A stretch of DNA of 64,000 bases, from assembly GCA_022729735.1 (NCBI GenBank), contig DZAY01000003.1, positions 1 to 64,000 on the forward strand, written 5' to 3'. How positions within the stretch are numbered: position 1 is the first letter of the stretch; each line of letters opens with the position of its first letter. The notes beneath the pieces were generated by a model. It saw only the letters and a list, made by a program, of their open reading frames with translations, was not told the DNA's origin and made no database searches. A program made the translations under genes and the position numbers. Shown here in pieces: positions 7,979-64,000 of the stretch. Source of the DNA: Helicobacter cetorum. Lineage in GTDB: Bacteria; Campylobacterota; Campylobacteria; Campylobacterales; DZAY01.

Positions 7979-8479
7979 ATGGCTGTAAAAGAGTTTAGCT
8001 TTGATATAAGTGCAGAACTTGATATGCAAGAATTGAAAAATGCGATTGAACAGACAAAAAAAGAGATAGTTAATAGATTTGATTTTAAAGATATTTTAAA
8101 AGAGATAGATTTTAATGAGAAAGAAAAAAATATTACAATTCTTTCAACTGGTGAAAAGAGAGTTGAAGCGATTTTTGATGTATTACAAAGCAAAGCAATT
8201 AAACGAAATATCTCTTTAAAATCTCTGAAACTTGATAAGTTTGAGAGTGCAAGTGGTGGAAATACAAAAGGCACTATTAAAATTATTGATGCGATTGATA
8301 AAGATAGTGCAAAAAAGATAGTTCAAAAAATAAAAGATTTAAAGCTTAAAGTTCAAGCTTCAATTAATGGTGATATTGTGCGAGTTAGTGGAAAAGATAA
8401 AGATGAACTTCAAAAAGTTATTCAAACTATTAAAAATGAAGAGTTTGAATTAGCACTTAATTTTATAAATTTTAGATAA
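7979..8479 (+). CDS. YajQ-family nucleotide-binding protein (UPF0234)
   Basis: FSFDISAELDMQELKNAIEQTKKEI..RFDFK; characteristic C-terminus VRVSGKDKDELQKVIQ. Confidence 0.9.
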   Translation: MAVKEFSFDISAELDMQELKNAIEQTKKEIVNRFDFKDILKEIDFNEKEKNITILSTGEKRVEAIFDVLQSKAIKRNISLKSLKLDKFESASGGNTKGTIKIIDAIDKDSAKKIVQKIKDLKLKVQASINGDIVRVSGKDKDELQKVIQTIKNEEFELALNFINFR

Positions 8480-61391: not shown

Positions 61392-61700
61392 TTATCTCAC
61401 TTTTTTATATTTTTTATTCAAATAACAAAAATCATAAAAATCGCATAACATCATATATTTCACATCAATATCTCTAAATTTATTAACAATTAACTCTTCT
61501 CCACTCAAATATAGCTTCACATCATCTCTAAACTCTTTTGGATAGCTCAATTTTTCTTCTTTTAAACCACTAAAGCAGATTAAAAAATCAGAAAATATTT
61601 CATCTATTAACTCTTTATCTTTGCTACTTTTAGTTATCAAAAAATCTCCAACACTCTCAAATCTTTTTAAAATTTCAACTAAACACTCTCTCATTTTCAC
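61392..61700 (-). CDS. Hypothetical protein (102 aa)
   Basis: 4-bp overlap with upstream minus-strand ORF; no recognised family. Confidence 0.55.
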   Translation of the reverse strand: MKMRECLVEILKRFESVGDFLITKSSKDKELIDEIFSDFLICFSGLKEEKLSYPKEFRDDVKLYLSGEELIVNKFRDIDVKYMMLCDFYDFCYLNKKYKKVR

Positions 61701-62254
61701 TCCATATAAGGTATATCCATTAAAGCATCTCTATCTTTTGCCTTAAAATCAAATGAGTTATCCACATTTTGCAACTCTTTTAAAACCTTTTCAATCGCTT
61801 TTTTTTGCAAAATATGTGCATTTGAATTTGTTAAATTATTCTCTATTTCAGCTTTATAAAATCCCAAAATTATTGGATGTAGTTTTGATTGATTTGAAAT
61901 CAACTCTTCTAAAAACTTTTTGATTTGTGATATATCAAAATCTCGAATTTGATGAAGTTTGCGAACTAAATTTCTAACAAACTGTTTGTGATGATAACCT
62001 TCACTCATAAATAAAAGTTCAGAAGAAGCATAAATATCTGCCACCTGTTCTGAATAGTTATAAAGGTATCTAAAATGGTCGCACACAAACTCTAAATACT
62101 CTGGATAATGTTTTAGCACAAATACAAGCTCTTTTAAATCTTTATCAATCAACACTTGAAAAAGTGTAATTGTTCGCTTTTTTATCTTTTCCCAATGAAG
62201 TCCCTCACCTTTTATCTCTTCGATAAATCGCTCATAATTTTTTATGTCATACAT
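61697..62254 (-). CDS. Hypothetical helical protein (185 aa)
   Basis: Intact ORF 13 bp downstream of the TOPRIM-like gene on the same strand; no recognised family. Confidence 0.6.
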   Translation of the reverse strand: MYDIKNYERFIEEIKGEGLHWEKIKKRTITLFQVLIDKDLKELVFVLKHYPEYLEFVCDHFRYLYNYSEQVADIYASSELLFMSEGYHHKQFVRNLVRKLHQIRDFDISQIKKFLEELISNQSKLHPIILGFYKAEIENNLTNSNAHILQKKAIEKVLKELQNVDNSFDFKAKDRDALMDIPYME

Positions 62255-62267
62255 TTACTACCTTTGG

Positions 62268-62939
62268 TTAATTATTTGAAAGTAGTTTTAAAAAAGTTTT
62301 CAAATCATTTAAAATAGGATTTTCAAAATCCCAAATATCTTTTTTTATTGCAACTTCATTTTTACAATTTTTATCAGCTTGTTTTTGTTCTTTTTTACTA
62401 CAAGTATCAAATCTCAAATAGTTACTCACCCAAAATTTATCAAACTCTTTTTGTGAAATCTCTTTTTTATTTTCTTCTAAACATTTTTTCCAAGCTTCCA
62501 AACAATCAGCATAAATAGATTCTTCTGATTTTATGGCTTTTAATACTGTTTCAAGTTCTCCATTTCCTTTTACATTCATAATATAGCAACCAATTTCTAT
62601 ATCTAACTCTTCAACTCTTATAAATTCATTTATTTTTGTAATTTCAAAATTATCTGATACATCTTCCAAAGATTTAACACATTTATTAATTAAAGCAATT
62701 TGTTTTTCAATACCTTCATTATCAGCATCAATAATAATTCCTATTTTTTTATATTGCTCAAATCTAACCTCTTTAAGAGTTTGTGTTAATTTTTTTTCAG
62801 ATAATCCACCTAAACACTCAAAATCTGTAATATTACAAATAGGCTCATCTACTTTAATATTTGTAAATCCCATAACATCTTTTAATTTTTCGATAAAAAA
62901 TTTATCATTATGACTTTCGACAATAATTAAATTATTCAC
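62268..62939 (-). CDS. DUF3226/TOPRIM-like protein
   Basis: VESHNDKFFIEKL (TOPRIM Glu motif) and GIIIDADNEG (DxD); overlaps upstream ATPase gene by 8 bp. Confidence 0.72.
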   Translation of the reverse strand: MNNLIIVESHNDKFFIEKLKDVMGFTNIKVDEPICNITDFECLGGLSEKKLTQTLKEVRFEQYKKIGIIIDADNEGIEKQIALINKCVKSLEDVSDNFEITKINEFIRVEELDIEIGCYIMNVKGNGELETVLKAIKSEESIYADCLEAWKKCLEENKKEISQKEFDKFWVSNYLRFDTCSKKEQKQADKNCKNEVAIKKDIWDFENPILNDLKTFLKLLSNN

Positions 62940-64000
62940 CTCTTACCTCTCGATTATGAGTTAGAGCATATTCAAGTTGTTCATTATCTCGCTCTTTTAC
63001 TACTATCAAACCATTTTTCTGATTTCTATAAAATTCAAGATAAATTCCCTCATCACTCTCATTTACTTTATTAAATGCTTCTATACACTCTTTTGAGTGA
63101 GTAGTAGCAAAAATTTGACAATTTGCCATTTTTGAAGCTTCAAAGATAATTTTCCAAAGTTTTTCATAATTTGTATAATGTATTCCATTTTCTATTTCAT
63201 CAATAAATAAATAACCATCTTTACTTGCCCAAATTGCACATAAAATAGCGATGTACCTATTAATTCCTTCACCAAAAGAAGATAATAAAACTAATTGTTC
63301 TCTATTTTGTAATCGTAATTTAAAAACAGTTCCACCTTGTATAGGTATAGCTTTTAATAAAATAATATTTTCATCAAATTGCTTAAGAGACTCATTTAAA
63401 TATTCTTCTTTATTTAAATTACTTAAACTGCCATAATACACAGCTAATGATATATCATCTGCAATACATGATGATATAAAATTTACATTATTTGCAATAT
63501 ATTTAATATCTTGTTGAACTGAAAAAATTTTGCTTCTAAACTGTGAAATAGGAATACTTAATTTATCAGAATTAGAAAAGCTTATTTCTACTTCTGAATC
63601 AAGTGTCATTTTATTTATATTTGGATTTTGGAAAAAATCTTGCATTTGTGAATTTTTATTAAAATCAGGTTTATTTACAAGTTCACTAGCATCAATAAAT
63701 TTAAGATTTAAGTTAAAAGCTCCACTATATAAACTTATATCTGATTTTAGTTCATTAAAAAAATCTAACTCAATAAATTGTTGAGGCTGATTTGGATTAT
63801 TCTTTCTATCTTGTCTTCTTCTTGTTATATTAGATACTATTATTAAAACCCCAAATGCAGTTCTTGGTTTCAATAACATCTCCAACCCTTCAAGAAATGA
63901 AGTTTTACCAATATTATTTTTACCACCAATTAAATTAACTCTTTTTAAATTTTTAACTTTTAAATCTTGAAAGCATTTAAAATTTTTAAACTCAACATCT
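62932..64000 (-). CDS. RecF/OLD-like AAA (AAA15/AAA21) ATPase, truncated by right window edge
   Basis: Frame continues past listed start to the edge: DVEFKNFKCFQDLKVKNLKRVNLIGGKNNIGKTSFLEGLEMLLKP (Walker A); Walker B GYLFIDEIENGIHY; ATTHSKECIEAF. Confidence 0.88.
   Translation of the reverse strand, partial: DVEFKNFKCFQDLKVKNLKRVNLIGGKNNIGKTSFLEGLEMLLKPRTAFGVLIIVSNITRRRQDRKNNPNQPQQFIELDFFNELKSDISLYSGAFNLNLKFIDASELVNKPDFNKNSQMQDFFQNPNINKMTLDSEVEISFSNSDKLSIPISQFRSKIFSVQQDIKYIANNVNFISSCIADDISLAVYYGSLSNLNKEEYLNESLKQFDENIILLKAIPIQGGTVFKLRLQNREQLVLLSSFGEGINRYIAILCAIWASKDGYLFIDEIENGIHYTNYEKLWKIIFEASKMANCQIFATTHSKECIEAFNKVNESDEGIYLEFYRNQKNGLIVVKERDNEQLEYALTHNREVRGE

Follow-up and report, generated by a model that had tools for sequence, protein, structure and literature searches.

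Four open reading frames (ORFs) lie packed on the minus strand at positions 61392-64000 of the window, that is, the whole stretch of 64,000 nucleotides analysed here, which corresponds to positions 1-64000 of contig C30 of genome G000 (2.52 Mb, 66 contigs). A preliminary description read them as one candidate defence operon of an undescribed kind, with an ATPase, a TOPRIM-like protein and two further proteins as possible effectors, antitoxins or regulators, and the question raised by the locus is whether the four genes belong to a single system. All four ORFs were confirmed, with the spacings already described (overlaps of 8 and 4 bp on either side of a 13-bp gap), and they are genuine genes and not chance ORFs, since homologues were found for each of them. 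The ATPase gene runs past the window edge, and extension of the contig, as that description had proposed, recovered its N-terminus in the first 20 bases beyond position 64000, giving a protein of 362 aa. Three co-directional genes located past the same edge changed the interpretation of the four ORFs. The features of the locus are as follows:

62932-64000 in the window (full gene, contig 62932-64020), minus strand: ATPase A, a RecF/OLD-type ABC ATPase of 362 aa
62932-62939, minus strand: 8-bp overlap between the ATPase stop and the TOPRIM start
62268-62939, minus strand: TOPRIM protein B (DUF3226/TOPRIM), 223 aa, putative nuclease
62255-62267, minus strand: proposed 3' insertion junction, 13 bp from the TOPRIM stop to the p185 start
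61697-62254, minus strand: p185, 185 aa, a gene of the host MoxR-VWA operon
61392-61700, minus strand: p102, 102 aa, final gene of the host MoxR-VWA operon
Contig 64021-64068, outside the window: proposed 5' insertion junction, 48 bp between p238 and the ATPase
Contig 64069-64785, co-directional, upstream and beyond the window: p238
Contig 64748-65911, co-directional, upstream and beyond the window: VWA/DUF2201 protein
Contig 65874-66884, co-directional, upstream and beyond the window: MoxR-type AAA ATPase

The ORFs of 185 and 102 aa close an operon with the order MoxR-VWA-p238-p185-(ArsC-like)-p102. Genes 64% and 44% identical to p185 directly follow p238 in genomes G020 and G049, where the order without the ATPase-TOPRIM pair is MoxR-VWA-p238-p185-143 aa-p102 and VWA-p238-p185, respectively. 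Likewise, p238 and p185 are neighbours without the pair in G229, G400, G414, G149 and G316 (host-operon loci lacking the pair: L071, L072 and L115-L119), the gap between the two genes ranging from -8 to 106 bp where measured. For p102, identity to the gene that ends the operon is 38% in G020 and 53% in G399. In addition, p185 and p238 are diverged paralogues (30% identity, E 9.4e-15); an AlphaFold model of p185 alone reached a pLDDT of 43. The 143-aa ArsC-like protein encoded in the relatives is nearest to TIGR01616, "nitrogenase-associated protein" (3.9e-29), with a score of 101 bits that falls slightly under the curated cut-off of 109; a search for this protein in G000 did not find it. As a separate observation, a stretch of around 100 bp with palindromic pieces separates p238 from p185 in G020 (L071, 7860-7965), and a gap of about 100 bp is also present in G229, while that of the relative G400 measures 12 bp. 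This stretch is possibly a small repeat-element insertion.

Regarding the other two genes, the Walker A and Walker B motifs pointed out in the preliminary description are present in the ATPase (GGKNNIGKT at residue 32 and LFIDEIEN at residue 271), together with a signature region SSFGEG at residue 247 and TTHS at residue 306. Searches against Pfam returned AAA_15 (4.1e-19, 69.9 bits) and AAA_21 (3.5e-17, 63.9 bits), both above the curated cut-offs. Among PADLOC models the best was AbiLi (PDLC02336, 4.5e-56, full length), followed by PDC-M38A (PDLC04611, 3.6e-54, model positions 5-383 of 383), and the matches to AriA models were weaker than both (1.4e-19). Protein B matched DUF3226 (5.4e-24), Toprim below threshold (0.0027) and the PADLOC model PDC-M38B (PDLC04623, 6.8e-12, model positions 2-212 of 219). 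TOPRIM domains carry a conserved glutamate after the first strand and a DxD motif after a later core strand. The E...DxD motifs noticed earlier in B correspond to IVES (E8) and DADN (D71, D73), and E8, N11, D12, D71 and D73 are invariant in an alignment of 14 B homologues. The AlphaFold model of B (pLDDT 81.7) places E8 directly after the first strand (2-7) and D71xD73 at the end of strand 63-71, which supports a TOPRIM-type topology. Of the two structural checks of the TOPRIM fold, predicted topology agreed with it and Foldseek gave no significant match: nothing in the PDB scored below 0.01, and the weak matches (best E 0.012) included the TOPRIM-bearing topoisomerase I, retron Eco2, RecR and AriB. 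Since these matches are weak, it is the motifs and the modelled topology that support the fold. A profile of B against PDB sequences gave chance matches alone.

The ATPase and TOPRIM genes form a two-gene unit. A scan of species genomes yielded 19 loci, spanning Campylobacterota, cyanobacteria, Thiotrichaceae, Ferruginibacter and others, and wherever both genes are visible the ATPase lies directly upstream of the TOPRIM gene, as expected from their proposed co-occurrence; the remaining loci are cut by a contig end or, in one case, hold a fragment of B. In a draw of 397 genomes from the phylum, B was found in seven, six of them with A adjacent, the seventh being a B fragment. The 8-bp overlap recurs in many homologous pairs (for example, L053 2619/2626, L056 8001/8008 and L074 7670/7677). 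The neighbours of the pair vary from locus to locus, no constant third gene being found, and among 55 of them most are housekeeping genes and few are defence-like. One Thiotrichaceae pair (L066, 7999-8663) carries an in-frame stop at about position 8163 of its TOPRIM gene, corresponding either to a pseudogene or to a sequencing error. Matches to B in phage and plasmid collections (L138, CAKLQH020000003.1, filed as phage; L139, NZ_CP104448.1, filed as a 4.09-Mb plasmid) appear to be misfiled Acinetobacter chromosome and are therefore not evidence of carriage by mobile elements; in L138 the ATPase-DUF3226 pair follows glyS, with glyQ and glyS adjoining.

How these two units came to be side by side was approached through their distribution and base composition. 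Among the 397 genomes, 32 carry p185 and/or p238 and seven carry B, the two sets overlapping only in G000. For the 70 ORFs encoding 150 aa or more over 80 kb, GC3 was 0.157 +/- 0.030, and the genes of the pair were found at the low end (B 1st, 0.103; A 3rd, 0.105), whereas those of the operon ranked at the opposite one (p238 70th, 0.252; p185 69th, 0.232; MoxR 67th, 0.208; VWA 65th, 0.199), so that the base composition of the pair clearly differs from that of the host-operon genes. Given the pair-free p238-p185 arrangement in relatives, the contrast in GC3 and the separate carriage among genomes, the pair is best read as an insertion. No mobile element or target-site repeat was found at the two junctions, where the search for a target-site duplication gave a longest shared word of 7 bp. 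We consider it likely that a self-contained ATPase-TOPRIM pair of the PDC-M38 type was inserted between p238 and p185, genes three and four of the operon, and acts as a sensor-nuclease defence.

The tight co-directional packing had suggested instead that all four ORFs make up one defence module, with p185 and p102 as additional components. We regard this as highly improbable, as relatives lacking the pair have homologues of p185 and p102 after MoxR-VWA-p238, both are absent from all other pair loci seen, and carriage coincides in G000 alone; the paralogy of p185 with p238 and the two-fold difference in GC3 argue in the same direction. The preliminary description had itself held that conservation of the downstream ORFs independently of the ATPase would speak against its four-gene module, and such conservation is what was found; of its defence operon, the ATPase-TOPRIM pair stands as a probable defence cassette and the four-gene system does not. 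A further possibility is that defence genes integrate repeatedly in the p238-p185 gap, which would make it a hotspot with the pair as one of its cargoes. In this regard, two GmrSD-like genes lie between p238 and p185 in G416 (L112, 9448-12560), and a mad3-like ATPase and a GmrSD-like gene directly follow p238 in G394 (L128, 810-4039). However, elsewhere the cargo consists of transporters, SelO, a HAD hydrolase or a second MoxR-VWA pair, so that it is not specifically defensive, and with few independent cases a defence hotspot was not established and appears rather unlikely.

Arrays of three to four ATPase-TOPRIM pairs arranged head to tail were found in genome G011 (L075, 5014-11035; L076, 5677-11959; L077, 7515-12133). 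Eleven of its ATPases showed mean pairwise identities of 82-87% over residues 1-40 and 59-73% around Walker B, but of 5-22% from about residue 80 to 180. Two types of TOPRIM gene are mixed in one array: that at L075 9532-10104 encodes a protein 53% identical to B of the window and around 20% identical to its array neighbours, although the accompanying ATPase shares 41-51% identity with those of the neighbours. This pattern is what a trigger-sensing region combined with an exchangeable effector would be expected to look like. In G000 itself, a second and diverged pair was detected (L004, 5932-10857; contig C53, 20931-25856), with an ATPase matching PDC-M38A at 4.4e-107. The gene that follows this pair encodes a protein of 1116 aa in which NB-ARC, TPR and PtuA-like ATPase domains are combined.

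With its ATPase and TOPRIM motifs intact, its constant adjacency and its patchy distribution, the pair is probably an anti-phage cassette, and the analogy with PARIS and OLD systems suggests a sensor-effector mechanism for it. The RecF/OLD-like ATPase would assemble as a nucleotide-dependent sensor that keeps the TOPRIM protein inactive, and its poorly conserved middle (about residues 60-190) could recognise a phage trigger, an idea for which the hypervariable ATPase middle in the G011 arrays offers a hint. Once freed, the TOPRIM protein would act as a two-metal nuclease (E8, D71, D73) on tRNA or DNA, and this activity might bring growth of infected cells to a halt. The cassette is probably transcribed along with the host operon.

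Another reading of the pair is that of a cellular OLD-like ATPase and nuclease with a housekeeping role, such as DNA repair or cell cycle, and no antiviral one. The mostly housekeeping neighbours noted above are consistent with it, as is the cell-cycle role reported for an OLD-family ATPase, the archaeal Cran1 (PMC12796447). Nevertheless, a very patchy carriage (7/397 genomes), a scatter across distant phyla, a composition that does not resemble that of the host operon and the tandem duplication with a hypervariable ATPase middle in G011 make it unlikely. Membership of the pair in AbiL or PARIS proper seems very unlikely. The ATPase does have AbiLi as its best PADLOC model and also matches AriA, yet B gave no match to AbiLii at E<=1, on which AbiL was rejected, and has no DUF4435, the missing second component on which PARIS was rejected.

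The host operon, on the other hand, tracks with nitrogen-fixation genes. A nifH match above the curated cut-off was present in 30 of the 32 genomes carrying p185/p238 and in 42 of the 365 non-carriers (Fisher 6e-23; p-values of this kind overstate independence, since the genomes share ancestry); the exceptions among the carriers were G388, with a partial match, and G410, with none. Within genus g17, p185/p238 was found in 9/12 nif+ and 0/19 nif- genomes, and within genus g9 in 3/3 and 0/14, respectively. As a control trait, nosZ was not enriched in carriers of p185/p238 (over the cut-off in 5/28 carriers versus 19/33 non-carriers of genera g17 and g9). G000, with 7.44% contamination by its own estimate, has its nifH on a different contig. 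Twelve genomes of family f17 have p185 or p238 on the contig of nifH, at a distance of roughly 22-53 kb, whereas a long distance separates the two in other families. MoxR-VWA pairs insert metal or mature complexes, as in NorQ/NorD and RavA/ViaA, and these maturation roles make a nitrogenase-related role of the host operon a reasonable lead, not a result. Our tentative proposal, to which we give slightly less than an even chance, is that this MoxR-VWA-p238-p185-ArsC-like-p102 set would be an undescribed accessory operon of nitrogen-fixing Campylobacterota that matures or protects nitrogenase or its partners in a NorQ/NorD-like manner. Among the papers searched, none connects MoxR and von Willebrand factor with nitrogen fixation.

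The defence finding is in itself ordinary, a probable PDC-M38 cassette, but the analysis dismisses a four-gene defence system that proved false and sets the probable two-gene cassette apart from its host operon. In addition, the tandem arrays provide a testable lead on how such systems may diversify triggers and effectors, and the MoxR-VWA operon, which tracks nitrogen-fixation genes and includes two unnamed protein families, provides a second one.

In comparison with known systems, the host operon resembles the MoxR-VWA chaperone pairs NorQ/NorD and RavA/ViaA in having a MoxR ATPase and a VWA-like DUF2201 protein at its head, and differs from them by the addition of p238, p185, the ArsC-like protein (in relatives) and p102, and by its association with nifH. 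As for the pair, class 1 and class 2 OLD proteins have the ATPase and TOPRIM domains in one polypeptide, class 2 being accompanied by a UvrD-like helicase gene. The RecF/OLD ATPase and TOPRIM chemistry is common to them, GajA of Gabija included, but here two separate proteins are encoded and no GajB-type or UvrD-like helicase gene adjoins the pair, for which reasons class 1/2 OLD was rejected. The likeness to AbiL is one of the first component, its partner being unlike. PARIS, or AriA/AriB, has been proposed as class 4 OLD and also has split ATPase and TOPRIM genes. In it, sensing is done by the ATPase AriA, and AriB acts as a TOPRIM tRNA nuclease (PMC12409363, PMC9122126), and detection requires AAA_15 at >=32 bits or AAA_21 at >=27 bits, plus DUF4435 at >=27 bits (PMC9122126). 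The AAA_15 and AAA_21 scores obtained here exceed those thresholds, whereas the AriA match is the weaker one and B shows only DUF3226, a weak Toprim and noise matches, in agreement with the earlier view that the pair is related to PARIS but distinct from it. The claim of an undescribed system did not hold, as both proteins match the existing PADLOC candidate PDC-M38, itself only a candidate defence system; none of the papers searched mentions either PDC-M38 or DUF3226. Both components place the pair in PDC-M38 by sequence similarity: the two proteins match over nearly the full length of the models, the genes are adjacent with an 8-bp overlap, and all the features tested agree, the pair being located in this case inside a MoxR-VWA operon.
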